From Sphingomonas xanthus (GTDB lineage Bacteria; Pseudomonadota; Alphaproteobacteria; Sphingomonadales; Sphingomonadaceae), in assembly GCF_007998985.1 (NCBI RefSeq), contig NZ_CP041659.1:868001-932000 (forward strand): a stretch of 64,000 nt of DNA. The letters are read 5' to 3'. Each line of letters opens with the position of its first letter. Positions within the stretch are counted from its first letter, which is position 1. Under the pieces are notes generated by a model. It searched no databases and was not told the DNA's origin. It saw only the letters and a program-made list of their open reading frames with translations. This document shows positions 33,457 through 39,216 of the stretch, in pieces. Position numbers and translations under genes: made by a program.

Positions 33457-33505
33457 TGCCCCTTGAAAGCTTCGCGCGCAGGGCGTGAACCGGAAGGGGG
33501 CCGGC

Positions 33506-34069
33506 ATGAACCGCTTGCTACTGACACTGGGGGCGCTGGCCATAGCCGGCTGCAATTCGGAGCCTGAGGTCGAAGCGACCAATGCCAGCATCGAGGAAGT
33601 CGCCGCGGAAGTGCGCGAGGCGGGCGGAAGCGCGATGATCGTTCGCCCCGGCTTGTGGCAATCGACCGCCGAGTTGGAATCGATCGATGTGCCCGGAATG
33701 CCGCCGGCCGCCGCGGAGCAAATCAAGAAGACCATGGCCAGCGCAGTGAGCGGGCACAAGAGCTGCCTGACGGCCGAGCAAGTGCAAAAGCCGAGCGAGG
33801 ATTTCTTCGCCGGGCAGAACAGCAATTGCCGCTACGACAGGTTCAGCATGAAGAATGGCCGGATGAGCGGTGTCATGCGCTGCGCCCAGCAGGGCGGAAG
33901 TCAGCTCATCGAATTCGACGGCAGCTATTCGCCGGATGAATATCAGATGCGCATGGCCTCGACCGTCGAAGGCGCCGCCGGACCGGGCGGGCCGATGAAA
34001 ATGGTCATGCGGATGAGCTCGAAACGGATCGGCGACTGCACGCCGGGAAGCGACGCCGCGGCGAACTGA
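33506..34069 (+). CDS. DUF3617 family lipoprotein
   Basis: 187 residues from the ATG at 33506, preceded by GGAAGGGGG. The N-terminus M-N-R-L-L-L-T-L-G-A-L ends in the lipobox I-A-G-C (Cys16). The DUF3617 pattern is clear: R-P-G-L-W-Q-S near residue 48, C-L-T-A-E-Q near 85, C-x-Y-D-R-F, C-A-Q-Q-G-G and a closing R-I-G-D-C. The four Cys probably form disulfides. The family is periplasmic and uncharacterised. A second, more divergent member follows 29 bases on. Confidence 0.85.
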   Translation: MNRLLLTLGALAIAGCNSEPEVEATNASIEEVAAEVREAGGSAMIVRPGLWQSTAELESIDVPGMPPAAAEQIKKTMASAVSGHKSCLTAEQVQKPSEDFFAGQNSNCRYDRFSMKNGRMSGVMRCAQQGGSQLIEFDGSYSPDEYQMRMASTVEGAAGPGGPMKMVMRMSSKRIGDCTPGSDAAAN

Positions 34070-34098: not shown

Positions 34099-34614
34099 AT
34101 GAAGCGAGTAGAGATGATGGCGGTCGCGGCGGCGGCGCTGGTCCTGTCGGGATGCGGGGGAGAAGCAGAGGCGCCCAAGGCCGAAGCGGCGGCGACCGCG
34201 CTCAATGACGGGCTGTTCGAACTAACCTCCGAGGTTACCGCGTTGTCGTCGACCGACAATACGACACCCGCCACCGCGCTCAAGGTCGGCGACACGCAAA
34301 CGATCCAGGCCTGCGTCGCCGACAACAAGCCGAGCCCCGACCTGTTCGCCGAGGGCGAGGACAAATGCGAGATGAAGAACAGCTATATCCGCAACGGCCG
34401 CTTCAGCGCGCAGCTCACCTGCCAGCGCGACGGCAAGCGCGGCGAGGTGATGCCAGCGATGATGGGCAAGTTCACCGCCGACAGCTTCGAAGGCGACATC
34501 ACCGCGATGACCTATTTCATCGAGGACGGCGACTATCGCATTACACGCAAGGTCAGCGCCAAGCGGGTCGGCGATTGCCCGGCCCCGTCAGCAGAGACAG
34601 CGGCCGTGGGCTGA
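34099..34614 (+). CDS. DUF3617-like lipoprotein, second copy
   Basis: 171 residues. The signal ends in L-S-G-C (Cys19). The body has the same spacing of cysteines as the preceding gene (Q-A-C-V, D-K-C-E-M-K, L-T-C-Q-R and a closing R-V-G-D-C), with N-G-R-F-S-A-Q-L-T-C in place of N-G-R-M-S-G-V-M-R-C. The shared end motif K-R-(I/V)-G-D-C supports an old tandem duplication. The usual P-G-L-W near the start is replaced by N-D-G-L-F-E-L. Function unknown. Confidence 0.75.
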   Translation: MKRVEMMAVAAAALVLSGCGGEAEAPKAEAAATALNDGLFELTSEVTALSSTDNTTPATALKVGDTQTIQACVADNKPSPDLFAEGEDKCEMKNSYIRNGRFSAQLTCQRDGKRGEVMPAMMGKFTADSFEGDITAMTYFIEDGDYRITRKVSAKRVGDCPAPSAETAAVG

Positions 34615-35018
34615 TCCCCGCCGGAGTCCCGTCTCAGTTCGGCTTTGCCTTCGCCAGCCCGCCGACTTGTCCGGTGGAGCCGGCCTTCCCATCGTGATTG
34701 GTCGATCTCCGCACTGTTAGCAGGGTCTTCACTGGGCCGGGTTTCAAATGCTTATGGGCGCCATGGCCGTTCCTGTGGCGCTGGCGCCACGCCCCCCTCT
34801 GCGACGCCAAAAATTTAACGCTACGTCAATTTTTTTCCTTGTGCCTCGCAGGCTTTGGCCACAATATCTGGTTTAGCGCAGGGGGAATTGCTCAACGTAT
34901 TGTGGTTGGGGCGGAAGATGCCTATCTTCCGTAACGGCCCCGCTTGTGCCCTGTGGATATCGGGGACACGAGCATGAAAAAGCCCCGCGGCGCTTGATTT
35001 TGAGCTAGGCTCGGTACC
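34615..35018 (+). other. 404-base intergenic region upstream of nrdA
   Basis: No supported gene; the 78-codon frame at 34698-34934 crosses the NrdR boxes and lacks family features. A perfect hairpin GTGGCG-CTGG-CGCCAC lies at 34775-34790. An AT-rich stretch follows with AAAAATT (34809-34815) facing AATTTTT (34828-34834), which may be an upstream promoter element or a weak terminator. Two NrdR-like boxes follow at 34859-34905. Confidence 0.7.
34859..34905 (+). promoter_or_regulatory. Tandem NrdR-like boxes upstream of nrdA
   Basis: Box 1 (34859-34874) reads CCACAATATCTGGTTT and box 2, on the other strand (34905-34890), reads CCACAATACGTTGAGC. Both start with the same CCACAATA and resemble the NrdR consensus acaCwATATwTwGtgt. 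Their centres (34866.5 and 34897.5) are exactly 31 bases apart, the three-helical-turn spacing described for paired NrdR sites. NrdR is an ATP/dATP-sensing repressor of ribonucleotide reductase genes. nrdR itself is not in the window. Confidence 0.75.
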
Positions 35019-36962
35019 ATGGCACTGAGTCGAACACATGGTGAACAAGCGGTCGTTGAACGGCCCGAGGCACGGGGAATGACGATGGATTTTGCGACTT
35101 CCAGCGACGTCGGCGCGGACGAGGGTTCGGTCACCGAAACCAAGCGCACGAGCAAGACGATCGACGTCCGCGCCTATGATGTGAAAACCGCCCCGGAGCG
35201 CGACTCGCGGCTGACCGAATTCGGCAAGGAAACGCTGAAGGACCGCTATCTGTTGCCGGGAGAATCCTACCAGGACCTGTTTGCCCGTGTCGCCTCGGCC
35301 TATGCCGACGACCAGGACCATGCCCAGCGCGTCTACGACTATATTTCCAAGCTGTGGTTCATGCCCGCGACGCCCGTCCTGTCGAACGGCGGCACCGGCC
35401 GTGGCCTGCCGATCAGCTGCTATCTGAACAGTGTCGACGACAGCCTCGACGGGATCGTCAACACCTGGAACGAGAACGTCTGGCTGGCCTCTAAAGGCGG
35501 CGGCATCGGCACCTATTGGGGCGCGGTGCGCGGCATCGGCGAGCCGGTCGGCCTTAACGGCAAGACCAGCGGCATCATCCCGTTCGTGCGGGTGATGGAT
35601 TCGCTCACCCTGGCGATCAGCCAGGGCTCGCTGCGCCGCGGTTCGGCGGCTTGCTACCTCGACATTGCCCATCCGGAGATCGAGGAGTTCCTAGAGATCC
35701 GCAAACCCTCGGGCGACTTCAACCGCAAGGCGCTGAACCTGCACCACGGCGTGCTGGTCACCGACGAATTCATGGAGGCGGTGCGCGACGGCGCCGAATT
35801 CATGCTGCGCTCGCCGCGCGACGGGTCTGAACGGGGTAAGGTCGATGCCCGCTCGCTGTTCCAGAAGCTGGTCGAGACCCGGCTAGCGACCGGCGAGCCC
35901 TACATCATCTTCATCGACCAGGTGAACCGGTCGATGCCCAAGCACCACCGCGACCTTGGACTCAAGGTTTCAACCTCGAACCTTTGTTCGGAAATCACCC
36001 TTCCGACGGGACGCGACCATCTGGGCGCCGATCGCACCGCGGTCTGCTGCCTGTCGTCGCTCAACCTCGAAACCTGGGACGAATGGAACGGCGACAAGCA
36101 GTTCATCGAGGATGTGATGCGCTTCCTCGACAACGTCCTGTCCGACTATATCGCCCGGGCACCCGACGAGATGGCCCGCGCCAAATATAGCGCGGAGCGC
36201 GAACGGTCGGTTGGCCTCGGCGTGATGGGCTTCCACAGCTTCCTCCAGGCGCGCAGCCTGCCGTTCGAAGGCGCCATGGCCAAGTCATGGAACCTGAGGA
36301 TCTTCAAGCATATCCGCGCCCAGGTCGACGAAGCCTCGATGATGCTGGCGCAAGAGCGCGGACCCTGCCCGGACGCGGCCGACATGGGCGTGATGGAACG
36401 CTTCAGTTGCAAGATGGCGATCGCGCCGACCGCTTCGATTTCGATCATCGCCGGCGGAACCTCGGCGTGCATCGAACCGATCCCAGCGAATATCTACACT
36501 CACAAGACGCTCTCGGGCAGCTTCTCGATCAAGAACCCCTATCTTGAAAAATTGCTGACCGAAAAGTCCAAGAACAGCGACGGCGTGTGGAACACGATCC
36601 TCGAGCGCGGTGGAAGCGTGCAGCATCTCGACTTCCTGACGCAGGAAGAAAAGGACGTGTTCAAGACCAGCTTCGAGATCGACCAGCGCTGGCTGCTCGA
36701 ACTTTCGGCGGACCGCACGCCGTTCATCGACCAGGCGCAATCGCTGAACCTGTTCATCCCCGCCGATGTCGACAAGTGGGACCTGATGATGCTCCACTTC
36801 CGCGCGTGGGAACTGGGTATCAAGTCGCTCTATTACCTGCGCTCCAAGTCCGTCCAGCGCGCGGGCTTCGCGGGCGGGGTCGAAGCAGACAATACCCCCG
36901 ACCTCAAGCAGATCGCGCTTGCCGCGACGACCGATTACGACGAGTGCCTGGCCTGCCAGTAG
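35019..36962 (+). CDS. nrdA: Ribonucleoside-diphosphate reductase, alpha subunit (class I)
   Basis: 647 residues. It reduces ribonucleotides to deoxyribonucleotides with NrdB. Visible catalytic residues: Cys134 in I-S-C-Y-L-N-S, the N-x-C-x-E radical site in S-N-L-C-S-E-I-T-L-P near 325-334, the partner Cys in A-V-C-C-L-S-S-L-N, the Tyr-Tyr radical relay in K-S-L-Y-Y-L-R, and the C-terminal C-L-A-C redox pair. No N-terminal ATP-cone is present, so dATP inhibition through that domain is not expected. The ATG at 35019 has a poor ribosome site; ATGs at 35079 or 35085, after GGCACGGGGA, are alternatives. First gene of the nrd operon. Confidence 0.97.
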   Translation: MALSRTHGEQAVVERPEARGMTMDFATSSDVGADEGSVTETKRTSKTIDVRAYDVKTAPERDSRLTEFGKETLKDRYLLPGESYQDLFARVASAYADDQDHAQRVYDYISKLWFMPATPVLSNGGTGRGLPISCYLNSVDDSLDGIVNTWNENVWLASKGGGIGTYWGAVRGIGEPVGLNGKTSGIIPFVRVMDSLTLAISQGSLRRGSAACYLDIAHPEIEEFLEIRKPSGDFNRKALNLHHGVLVTDEFMEAVRDGAEFMLRSPRDGSERGKVDARSLFQKLVETRLATGEPYIIFIDQVNRSMPKHHRDLGLKVSTSNLCSEITLPTGRDHLGADRTAVCCLSSLNLETWDEWNGDKQFIEDVMRFLDNVLSDYIARAPDEMARAKYSAERERSVGLGVMGFHSFLQARSLPFEGAMAKSWNLRIFKHIRAQVDEASMMLAQERGPCPDAADMGVMERFSCKMAIAPTASISIIAGGTSACIEPIPANIYTHKTLSGSFSIKNPYLEKLLTEKSKNSDGVWNTILERGGSVQHLDFLTQEEKDVFKTSFEIDQRWLLELSADRTPFIDQAQSLNLFIPADVDKWDLMMLHFRAWELGIKSLYYLRSKSVQRAGFAGGVEADNTPDLKQIALAATTDYDECLACQ

Positions 36963-36963
36963 G

Positions 36964-37152
36964 ATGACCCTGGCCAATATCATCATGTTGGCCCTGGGCC
37001 TCCTCGCCGCCGCGGTCGGAGCGATGCTGCTCGCCCGCCGCGCCGCGACCGAAGGACAAGCCTATGCCCGGCGGATCGCTGGCATGATGAGCCTGGCGCT
37101 GGGAATTTTCCTGGCGATCTTCGCTGTCGGATTGAAGGGAGTCGGAGGATGA
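36964..37152 (+). CDS. Small two-helix membrane protein in the nrd operon
   Basis: 62 residues from the ATG at 36964, one base after the nrdA stop. Two hydrophobic segments (about 5-22 and 37-56) are joined by a basic linker with A-R-R-A-A-T-E-G-Q-A-Y-A-R-R. No family recognised. Its stop overlaps the next ORF's ATG (ATGA at 37149). It forms part of four consecutive overlapping small genes between nrdA and nrdB. Confidence 0.7.
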   Translation: MTLANIIMLALGLLAAAVGAMLLARRAATEGQAYARRIAGMMSLALGIFLAIFAVGLKGVGG

Positions 37153-37283
37153 CGACCACGCAGACCGTCCTGGTTGTCGCGATCGTCGCGGTGCTTGCGG
37201 TGTTGTTGCTGGCCCGCGGTTCAGGCCCGCGAGTCACGACCATCGAAACCCGGCGCGAGGAAGAAGAAAGGGAAGAGCAATGA
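37149..37283 (+). CDS. 44-residue single-helix protein in the nrd operon
   Basis: A frame of 45 codons starting with ATG in GGAGGATG (ribosome site GGAGG directly before). It encodes one membrane helix (V-L-V-V-A-I-V-A-V-L-A-V-L-L-L at about 7-21) and a charged cytoplasmic tail ending R-R-E-E-E-E-R-E-E-Q. Start and stop both overlap the neighbouring genes by 4 bases (ATGA at 37149 and 37280), which supports it as a real, coupled gene despite its size. Role unknown. Confidence 0.65.
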   Translation: MTTTQTVLVVAIVAVLAVLLLARGSGPRVTTIETRREEEEREEQ

Positions 37284-37570
37284 CCGGCTTTCGCGCCCTT
37301 CCCCGCCGTGCCGTCGCGGCGGCGATGCTGGCGCTTGCGCTGACCGCCTGCGTCGCCGAACAGGCGGCAAGCGCGGTCAACCCGGCCGGCCCGGGCTTCC
37401 TGCTCGGCGTATGGCATGGCTTCATCTTCCCGATCGCCTGGATCGTATCGCTGTTCGTCGACAATATCGCGGTCTACGCCGTGCCCAATAATGGCGGCTG
37501 GTACGACTTCGGCTTTTTCATCGGCATCGTCTTCCTGGGCGTCGGCGCCCGCAGCTCGCGGAGGCGGTGA
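37280..37570 (+). CDS. Small lipoprotein-like membrane protein in the nrd operon
   Basis: 96 residues. A basic start (F-R-A-L-P-R-R) and hydrophobic run end in A-L-T-A-C, a possible lipobox at Cys24. Two further hydrophobic stretches follow: F-I-F-P-I-A-W-I-V-S-L-F-V (about 49-61) and F-G-F-F-I-G-I-V-F-L-G-V (about 77-88), ending in R-S-S-R-R-R. Between them is V-P-N-N-G-G-W-Y-D-F-G, a Trp/Gly-rich loop. No family known to me. ATGA overlap with the preceding ORF; TGATG with the next. Confidence 0.7.
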   Translation: MTGFRALPRRAVAAAMLALALTACVAEQAASAVNPAGPGFLLGVWHGFIFPIAWIVSLFVDNIAVYAVPNNGGWYDFGFFIGIVFLGVGARSSRRR

Positions 37571-37926
37571 TGGGCGGCTATCGCCAGTCCAGCTACGATC
37601 CCGACAGCTATGACCAGCCGGGTCCTCCGCTCACGCCCTTCAATGGACTGCAATGGGCCGGGGTCGCGCTTGGCGCCGTGGGCATCGGCCTGTTCCTGCT
37701 CTATGTCGCCGGCAGGCTGGGTTGGACCGCGCCGATCGTCGCCACTGCTTCATCTGGCATCGTCCCGACCTTCGCTGGCTACATGCTGGTCAATTCGCGC
37801 CGCGGACCGTCGATTATGGTCGACGATGTCCAGCGCGACCGGAACCGCAAGATCCTTTTTGTCACTCTCGCCATCTGCGCCGCCATCCTCGGCGCCGCGC
37901 TCGTCATCGAATTCCAAGGAGCCTGA
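37570..37926 (+). CDS. Small two-helix membrane protein in the nrd operon
   Basis: 118 residues from the ATG at 37570, which overlaps the preceding stop by one base (TGATG). A GTG one codon earlier is also possible. A Tyr/Ser/Asp/Pro-rich N-terminus (Y-D-P-D-S-Y-D-Q-P-G-P-P) leads to G-L-Q-W-A-G-V-A-L-G-A-V-G-I-G, and a second hydrophobic stretch near residue 98 precedes the end. Role unknown. The nrdB ATG follows 3 bases after its stop and has AAGGAG inside this gene's last codons, so it is coupled to nrdB. Confidence 0.7.
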   Translation: MGGYRQSSYDPDSYDQPGPPLTPFNGLQWAGVALGAVGIGLFLLYVAGRLGWTAPIVATASSGIVPTFAGYMLVNSRRGPSIMVDDVQRDRNRKILFVTLAICAAILGAALVIEFQGA

Positions 37927-37929
37927 CCC

Positions 37930-38985
37930 ATGCCCCTCCTCGAAGCCCGCAAGCAGTATAAGCCGTTCGAATATCCTTGGGCGTTCGAATTCTGGAAGCG
38001 CCAGCAGCAGATCCACTGGATGCCCGAAGAGGTGCCGCTGGGCGAGGATTGCCGCGACTGGGCGCAGAAGCTTTCGGCGCATGAACGCAACTTGCTGACC
38101 CAGATCTTCCGCTTCTTCACCCAGGCCGACGTCGAGGTGCAGGACTGCTACCATGACAAATATGGCCGGGTGTTCAAGCCCACCGAAATCAAGATGATGC
38201 TGACCGCCTTCTCCAACATGGAGACGGTGCACATCGCCGCCTACAGCCACCTGCTCGACACGATCGGCATGCCCGAAAGCGAATATTCGGCCTTCCTCCA
38301 GTATAAGGAAATGAAGGACAAGCATGACTATCTGTCGACCTTCGGCGTCGATACCGACGAGGATATCGCCAAGACTCTGGCGATGTTCGGCGGCTTCACC
38401 GAGGGGCTTCAGCTGTTCGCCAGCTTCGCGATGCTGATGAACTTTCCGCGCTTTAACAAGATGAAAGGCATGGGTCAGATCGTCAGCTGGTCAGTGCGTG
38501 ACGAAAGCCTTCACTGCGAAGGCATCACCCGCCTGTTCCATGCCTTCGTCAAGGAGCGCGATTGCCTGACCAAGTCGGTCAGGGACGACATCCTTGACGT
38601 CTGCCAGAAGACCGTTCGGCTTGAGGATGCGTTCATCGACCTCGCCTTCGAACAGGGCCCGGTCGAAGGCATGACCCCCAAGGCGATCAAGAAATATATC
38701 CGCTACATCGCCGACTGGCGGCTGGGCCAGCTCGGCTTCAAGCCGATCTACATGGTCGACGAACATCCGCTGCCTTGGCTCGCGCCACTGCTCAACGGGG
38801 TGGAGCACGCCAACTTCTTCGAAACCCGCGCAACCGAATATTCCAAGGCCGCGACGAAGGGCAATTGGAACGAAGTCTGGGACAATTTCGACCGCCGGCA
38901 GCAAGCCAAGGTCGCCAACGACGCGCCCGAGGGCGAAGGCGATGGCGAGGATATGTTTGCGCGGGCTGGGGTCGCTGCTGAATAG
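37930..38985 (+). CDS. nrdB: Ribonucleoside-diphosphate reductase, beta subunit (class I)
   Basis: 351 residues. The di-iron ligands are visible: Glu98 and His101 in E-T-V-H-I-A-A-Y, with Tyr105 in the position of the E. coli radical Tyr122, and a second E-x-x-H in D-E-S-L-H-C-E-G. This makes it a tyrosyl-radical class Ia-type subunit. The C-terminal tail E-G-D-G-E-D-M-F is the acidic peptide that docks to NrdA. No ATP-cone is fused to its N-terminus. AAGGAG sits 8 bases before the ATG. It ends the nrdA-smORFs-nrdB operon; a TAG is immediately followed by a second TAG. Confidence 0.97.
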   Translation: MPLLEARKQYKPFEYPWAFEFWKRQQQIHWMPEEVPLGEDCRDWAQKLSAHERNLLTQIFRFFTQADVEVQDCYHDKYGRVFKPTEIKMMLTAFSNMETVHIAAYSHLLDTIGMPESEYSAFLQYKEMKDKHDYLSTFGVDTDEDIAKTLAMFGGFTEGLQLFASFAMLMNFPRFNKMKGMGQIVSWSVRDESLHCEGITRLFHAFVKERDCLTKSVRDDILDVCQKTVRLEDAFIDLAFEQGPVEGMTPKAIKKYIRYIADWRLGQLGFKPIYMVDEHPLPWLAPLLNGVEHANFFETRATEYSKAATKGNWNEVWDNFDRRQQAKVANDAPEGEGDGEDMFARAGVAAE

Positions 38986-39216
38986 TAGTTCCGCTTCGGC
39001 TACAGACGGGCAAAGGAGGGTGCGGCAGGCAACAGTCCGGTTCCGGTTGCCGGACAACAACGCACCATGGCTTCGCCGACGGCGAGCCTCGCGGGTCGGA
39101 GAAAAGCACTGATCATGCTATAGTCAGGTCCGGTCGCGGCGCGCGGCGCTGCTATGCCCGTCTTCAATATCTCTGCGGCCCTGTTGCTTCTCGTCGAACT
39201 CGCAGGAGAGACGACC

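Follow-up and report, generated by a model that had tools for sequence, protein, structure and literature searches.

NrdI, NrdH and YfaE are accessory proteins of class I ribonucleotide reductase (RNR) operons. In a 64,000-nucleotide stretch of the Sphingomonas xanthus genome (contig NZ_CP041659.1, positions 868,001 to 932,000 of the forward strand; hereafter the window), four small open reading frames (ORFs), named A to D, were found between nrdA and nrdB. Like the genes of the three accessory proteins, ORFs A to D are small and co-encoded with nrdA and nrdB; unlike them, they are membrane-like, match none of these accessory families over cut-off, vary between species and are missing in some relatives. 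On balance, and with limited confidence, we lean to the view that the nrdA-nrdB gap is a lineage-specific expression slot of the Sphingomonadales for small membrane proteins, which would be co-translated with the reductase.

The closest described parallel is mobE of the T-even phages where, as here, a foreign gene lies between nrdA and nrdB. In the available parts of two reports, mobE is expressed from promoters upstream of nrdA and overlaps the nrdA stop codon (UAAUGA) (PMC2988022, PMC3322345). The genes inserted there are phage endonucleases, whereas several small membrane proteins are encoded here, within a bacterial core operon. Two other groups of proteins bear on this locus. PepSY_TM membrane reductases such as VciB and CrpH have the domain PF03929 in common with one recurrent gap family (17/17 members), but the gap family is short (~130 amino acids, aa), 16 of its 17 members having two predicted helices, and the window contains none of it. 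Small lipoproteins of phages and plasmids (PHROG 30702) resemble ORF C in sequence, whereas in the sphingomonads looked at C was seen only in an nrd context. For Zymomonas, the available part of one source names nrdA and nrdF in separate transcription units (PMC10746277). No description of the present nrdA-nrdB membrane-gene arrangement was found in a literature search that was largely without subscription papers.

ORFs A to D as genes

As shown in Table 1, the coordinates and lengths of the four ORFs given in a preliminary description of this DNA were exact, as were the junctions. ORF A begins 1 base after nrdA, the pairs A/B and B/C each overlap at ATGA, C and D overlap at TGATG, and D is separated from nrdB by 3 bases. 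Overlapping stop and start codons in one direction are the pattern of a coupled operon, which the preliminary description had proposed. The same pattern in the window's genus supports the proposal: 76 of 170 same-strand junctions (nrdA and nrdB included) overlapped and 35 more were within 5 nt, 111 altogether.

Genes were called with an unpublished codon-score heuristic of our own. This codon-usage chain, trained on nrdA and nrdB, selected all four ORFs, with scores of 17 (A), 7 (B), 43 (C) and 43 (D). The ratio of nonsynonymous to synonymous substitution rates (dN/dS) between the window and its relatives was 0.38–0.43 for ORF A (3 pairs; 0.53 against a 31%-identical A-like copy in locus L062), 0.19–0.97 for B (3 pairs; 0.19 against L062 and 0.97 against L070), 0.24–0.47 for C (5 pairs) and 0.49–0.72 for D (4 pairs); the estimates are rough where dS approaches or exceeds 1, as several of the values did. 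By comparison, nrdB gave 0.03–0.10 against three relatives, a far tighter constraint. A cluster-wide run used pairs which passed a k-mer filter and had dS below 2.5, and the eight lowest-dS pairs of each cluster were listed. The check on dN/dS below 1, suggested in the preliminary description, came out positive for every pair listed. Because all listed ratios are below 1 yet looser than those of nrdB, ORFs A to D look like real, fast-evolving genes, with the weakest case for B.

It is highly improbable that the four ORFs arose as open frames by chance in GC-rich DNA. Long frames also occur on the antisense strand here, as this explanation would expect, but it is already contradicted by computation: the codon scores, the junction pattern, dN/dS below 1 and the presence of relatives at the same place led us to reject it.

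Contents of the nrdA-nrdB gap in sphingomonads

One hundred loci were fetched by intact nrdB matches, 40 from the window's genus (drawn from 61 genomes) and 60 from other genera of the family (mostly from 119 genomes). Both nrdA and nrdB were in view in 93 loci (39 from the genus and 54 from others); the other seven were left out of the gap counts. The gap was 48–6392 bp long in the genus (median 967) and 60–5608 bp in the other genera (median 1046.5). Both genes were present in 63 genomes outside the family; in 10 of them the genes were on different contigs or far apart, one had the reverse order, and the 52 co-oriented pairs that were counted had a median gap of ~70 bp. At most 18 of these 52 gaps exceeded 200 bp, an upper bound because match ends sometimes stop near nrdA residue 616. 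When the 18 longer gaps were read by eye, single membrane or lipoprotein ORFs were seen in a few and no comparable chain of small transmembrane (TM) genes in any.

The called gap proteins, 300 in number, formed 26 clusters and 85 singletons. ORF A belongs to cluster 0, and ORF B to cluster 9, which was found in 4 loci. TM segments were called on the Kyte-Doolittle scale with a window of 19 and a threshold of 1.6. Of the 151 gap genes called in the genus, 141 were on the nrd strand, 130 of those 141 had a predicted TM segment, and 147 of 151 encoded proteins of at most 160 aa. Uncalled ORFs of at least 40 aa in the same DNA had a TM segment in 21 of 286 cases (genus) and 43 of 579 (other genera), a control that is not independent of the gene caller. 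The same-strand gap genes of the genus comprised 13 families and 28 singletons, and a TM segment was predicted in 19 of the latter. A same-strand TM gene within 10 nt was the last gene before nrdB in 25 of the 37 genus loci having a called gene. For the other genera, 93 of 149 called gap genes were on the nrd strand, 65 of these with a TM segment.

Genes of other kinds were also present in the gap. An antisense gene of ~80 aa, whose tested member is DUF2171, was located inside the gap in 28 of 93 loci (e.g. L079:5795-6049), and cluster 12, the single tested member of which is DUF559, in 4 of 93. The 6.4-kb gap of locus L100 (genome G171) held a 655-aa protein and other genes with no predicted TM segment beside the usual small membrane set.

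Turnover and inheritance of the gap families

The preliminary description proposed to look for the same four ORFs in relatives. The families did recur between nrdA and nrdB; a fixed set did not, as 34 distinct same-strand family orders were counted in 39 genus loci. A similar set, consisting of A-like twice, B, C and D, was found in L062 (genome G145), where the codon-score caller missed an A-like copy that was recovered by profile search. The first A-like copy in L062 opens directly after the nrdA stop (from 5522), without an ordinary start codon at its beginning.

The presence of each family was mapped on a tree of NrdA plus NrdB and the number of changes compared with the mean of shuffled trials. 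ORF C (31/93) required 19 changes against 26.1, A-like 11 against 28.5, PepSY 11 against 15.9 and D 10 against 11.5. These numbers are below the shuffled means, indicating inheritance together with frequent loss or gain; for D the result is scarcely better than random. C was found in 17 of the 54 other-genera loci, which cannot be taken as a frequency because the selection of these loci favoured genomes having a C match. A better estimate comes from a single-sequence search, by which 34 of 149 family genomes contained C.

Location of the gap families in the genome

Profiles of C, D and the short PepSY_TM family were searched in 80 of the 94 genomes first listed, and the A-like profile in the 40 genus genomes only. 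All 25 C matches were upstream of nrdB on its strand. The PepSY profile gave 20 rows, of which the 17 strong ones all preceded nrdB on the nrdB strand at no more than 1.4 kb and the three weak ones lay elsewhere, in G067 and G014. Likewise, 44 of 47 A-like matches were strong and all in an nrd context upstream of nrdB on its strand, the other 3 being weak and elsewhere. For D, 13 of 16 matches were upstream of nrdB on its strand, 8 of the 13 within 9 nt of the nrdB match. D paralogues off the nrd locus (G169:C1:918594 and 2216749, G165:C1:73820) were the only strong exceptions to nrd linkage.

The best 80 of 578 confirmed named C matches were all nrd-linked and all came from Sphingomonadales or from unplaced metagenome records; these are the closest matches, and remoter relatives may lie in other places. 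Among the 80, C was located between nrdA and nrdB in 64, before nrdB with nrdA unseen in 11 and behind nrdA with nrdB unseen in 5. Among these 11 loci, L175 has an nrdA that overlaps the start of C, which is thus actually between the two genes, and four others (L176, L178, L230 and L231) begin near a contig end. The link can go with either nrd gene: C is still directly behind nrdA in two named Novosphingobium contigs, and in genome G152, where nrdA is ~650 kb away, C is still in front of nrdB.

C was kept beside nrd over many genera, unlike the window neighbours outside the nrdA-nrdB pair. Six such neighbours were found in 12, 9, 2, 1, 1 and 1 of the 40 genus loci (the window's own included) and in 0, 0, 0, 0, 0 and 1 of the 60 other-genera loci, the loci extending only ~2 kb behind nrdB. 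Outside the family, C was found in 5 genomes among 289 searched in the class, and for these five no nrd gene was detected in the 3-kb loci or among the ORFs read within 3.5 kb.

Sequence and predicted structure of the gap proteins

No match over cut-off was obtained for A to D in Pfam or NCBIfam, including the named RNR accessory families (NrdI, NrdH and ferredoxin), which agrees with the earlier claim that membrane genes are no standard nrd partners. PepSY_TM (PF03929) was not matched by any of the four, and neither was a nuclease of the homing endonuclease or mobE-like kind in the same two databases. Matches of A and D below the Pfam cut-off (Tetraspanin, DUF3098, DUF3704) were set aside. 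Among the relatives, the best Pfam E value of C was 0.02; A-like reached 3.1e-5 with DUF308 (7 of 37 members) and D 2.3e-4 with DUF4153 (1 of 12). Known anti-phage defence genes were rejected as candidates, as none of seven gap proteins (A, C and D included, B not) matched a PADLOC model at E ≤0.1. ORF B showed a weak match to PHROG 11572 (function unknown) with an E value of 4.9e-4.

The alignment of C took 29 of 31 members, two partial ones being left out, and that of A-like 37 of 48. There are 23 invariant columns in the 29 C sequences, and the stretches PGF, HGF and YAVPNxG are invariant. A lipobox was read by eye: L21 and C24 are invariant in 29/29 aligned members and follow an N-terminal hydrophobic stretch, while Pfam LPAM_1 matched only 2 of 29, weakly. 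The AlphaFold model of C has helices at residues 9–22, 40–56 and 73–89. Its mean pLDDT of 76.8 and pTM of 0.52 are weak, so the model supports no more than a probable hairpin. C is likely a lipoprotein with a predicted helical hairpin. When PDB sequences were searched, the C profile and the PepSY profile each had a single match, at chance level.

ORF C matched PHROG 30702 at 2.3e-19, and its relatives were found in Cellulophaga phages and in plasmids of Vibrio, Pseudomonas and Pseudoalteromonas. Import from a plasmid or phage was rejected on a search with C alone, whose relatives there are remote and span about half of its length. In Cellulophaga phages phi4:1 and phi17:2, a C relative lies ~3.3 kb behind the phage's own nrdB-nrdA (L274:7911-8201, L278:7827-8174). 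The two phages are related, and such a spacing in a genome of 145 kb is no strong evidence. Two other viral stretches had no nrd gene by similarity.

Whether the reductase requires the gap genes

The gap is 48 bp in genome G204 and 51 bp in G150, and neither genome gave a match to any profile searched genome-wide (A-like, C, D and PepSY, but not B). Six of the 40 genus genomes had NrdJ over cut-off and two more, G158 and G187, had split pieces of it; it was not over cut-off in G204, G150, G077, G154 or the window's genome. Compensation by NrdJ in the short-gap genomes was rejected on this account. Because G204 and G150 are without the four families and without NrdJ over cut-off, the A-like, C, D and PepSY families appear not to be indispensable for RNR in these two genomes (NrdJ was searched, class III RNR was not). 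A need of the reductase for the gap ORFs is not supported by this result. The roles put forward in the preliminary description, namely anchoring the reductase near the membrane, cofactor assembly or sensing, are conjectural. In another genome, a second nrdB-like match (68% identity) with an adjoining NrdA-like match was seen apart from the main nrd locus (G198:C1:1381053-1384172).

Possible roles of the gap genes

In the reading that we favour, small inner-membrane and lipoprotein genes would be gained, duplicated and lost in the nrdA-nrdB gap, and ORFs A to D would be the present cargo of this genome's slot. The reading takes in what was computed: real genes, a bias in strand and TM segments, a near-exclusive location, turnover, and four families missing in two relatives. 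From the junctions we infer co-transcription and coupling, the gap genes being transcribed and translated within the nrd message, presumably by reinitiation at overlapping codons along it. As for the role of each protein, they would act at the membrane, riding the growth-coupled supply of nrd mRNA, and would be neither RNR subunits nor required by RNR. Membrane addressing or iron supply are possible roles.

Several observations weigh against an expression slot. The slot is not always one operon, because 56 of 149 called gap genes in the other genera are antisense. In G152, PepSY, C, A-like and D are all still in front of nrdB in spite of the distant nrdA. A dedicated RNR partner, too, would be confined almost entirely to the nrd locus over many genera. 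Gap members were the source of the profiles, which could miss distant relatives elsewhere. As to signals in the window, two terminator-like patterns are present in the gap (shuffle mean 3.6 for the region), and the promoter scan was uninformative, with no matches anywhere, the region upstream of nrdA included.

The gap genes may instead be a dedicated membrane module for the RNR cofactor, in which a short PepSY_TM reductase and its partners feed ferrous iron or electrons to the NrdB centre; the role would equal that of ferredoxin YfaE in E. coli. We consider this unlikely. It would account for the position of all 17 strong short-PepSY_TM matches, for the PF03929 match of the whole short PepSY gap family and for G152, where the set remains with nrdB while nrdA is elsewhere, and the available parts of two sources present PepSY_TM proteins as reductases of ferrisiderophores or iron (PMC13038864, PMC8238504). 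However, the window genome has no PepSY match, G204 and G150 are without all four families and without NrdJ over cut-off as a substitute, the gap contents vary from species to species, and C relatives occur in five genomes outside the family with no nrd gene in view. In addition, CrpH, a studied PepSY_TM protein, supports heme-copper oxidases and not RNR, as far as the available part of its description goes (PMC13038864). It is also rather unlikely that the gap is a nursery for small ORFs that are young or have only weak functions, that is, a slot which tolerates junk, with coupling exposing it and TM-forming ORFs merely tolerated. The strong conservation of C with its invariant columns, the C relatives in other alphaproteobacteria, Vibrio plasmids and phages, and dN/dS below 1 in every pair listed argue against a nursery, although the 85 singletons among the 300 called proteins, the relaxed dN/dS of the same-strand membrane families (0.16–0.97 in the pairs listed) and the high turnover, D with its 10 tree changes against a shuffled mean of 11.5, would fit it.

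Selection might also act on membrane insertion itself, if interchangeable small membrane proteins coupled to nrdB translation served to address the nrd mRNA or polysomes and the new RNR to the inner membrane. The property common to the same-strand genus genes is indeed the TM segment (130 of 141) and not the sequence, and a TM gene directly precedes nrdB in the 25 genus loci mentioned above. Such addressing is physically plausible, because in E. coli the messages for non-membrane proteins are enriched at the membrane when they share a polycistronic mRNA with inner-membrane proteins, according to the available part of one report (PMC4874777). We nevertheless regard this explanation as quite unlikely: relatives with almost no gap exist, nrdA is translated first so that the message would have to relocate afterwards, and same-strand genes with a TM segment make up only 65 of the 149 called in the other genera. 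If true, it would account for the persistence of TM character, strand and coupling in the genus despite the turnover of unrelated families.

Fast-turning, near-locus-exclusive membrane microproteins in a core DNA-precursor operon constitute a natural experiment, and the arrangement allows testing whether operon partners share function, cellular address or merely a promoter. The gap is also a source of undescribed families of small proteins whose expression context is defined.

Flanking nrd genes and upstream region

Table 1. Features of the nrd locus in the window (positions are those of the window).
Feature	Position	Strand	Description
nrdA, class I ribonucleotide reductase large subunit	35019..36962	+	647 aa from first ATG; NCBIfam PRK09102, Pfam Ribonuc_red_lgN/lgC
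ORF A	36964..37152	+	62 aa, two hydrophobic helices, 2-TM family
ORF B	37149..37283	+	44 aa, one TM helix, charged tail with PRVTxIE motif
ORF C	37280..37570	+	96 aa, predicted lipoprotein, LxxC at residues 21-24
ORF D	37570..37926	+	118 aa, two or three TM helices, N-terminal DP and QWxGV motifs conserved
nrdB, class I ribonucleotide reductase small subunit	37930..38985	+	351 aa; NCBIfam PRK09614
NrdR-box-like pair upstream of nrdA (CCACAATATCTGG, GTATTGTGG)	34859..34905	+	tentative motif matches

NrdA scored 1038.7 bits against NCBIfam PRK09102 (cut-off 620) and NrdB 584.6 bits against PRK09614 (cut-off 237). Both are thus above curated cut-offs, and their genes are on the same strand and close together, as in a class I RNR operon. 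No ATP-cone was matched in NrdA by Pfam. The true start of nrdA may be the ATG at 35079, not 35019, because many relatives align only from residue ~19–23.

No Rfam element was found in window positions 34600-39200 at gathering score. Both NrdR-box-like cores were found 5′ of nrdA in 5 of 91 loci (window included) and at least one in 16 of 91; across the window the pattern occurs 5 times where 4.5 would be expected, which is chance level. Upstream of nrdA the window also has two small genes for putative lipoproteins (33485-34069 and 34099-34614). They were near nrd in 9 and 12 of the 40 genus loci, respectively (window included), and in none of the 60 others.

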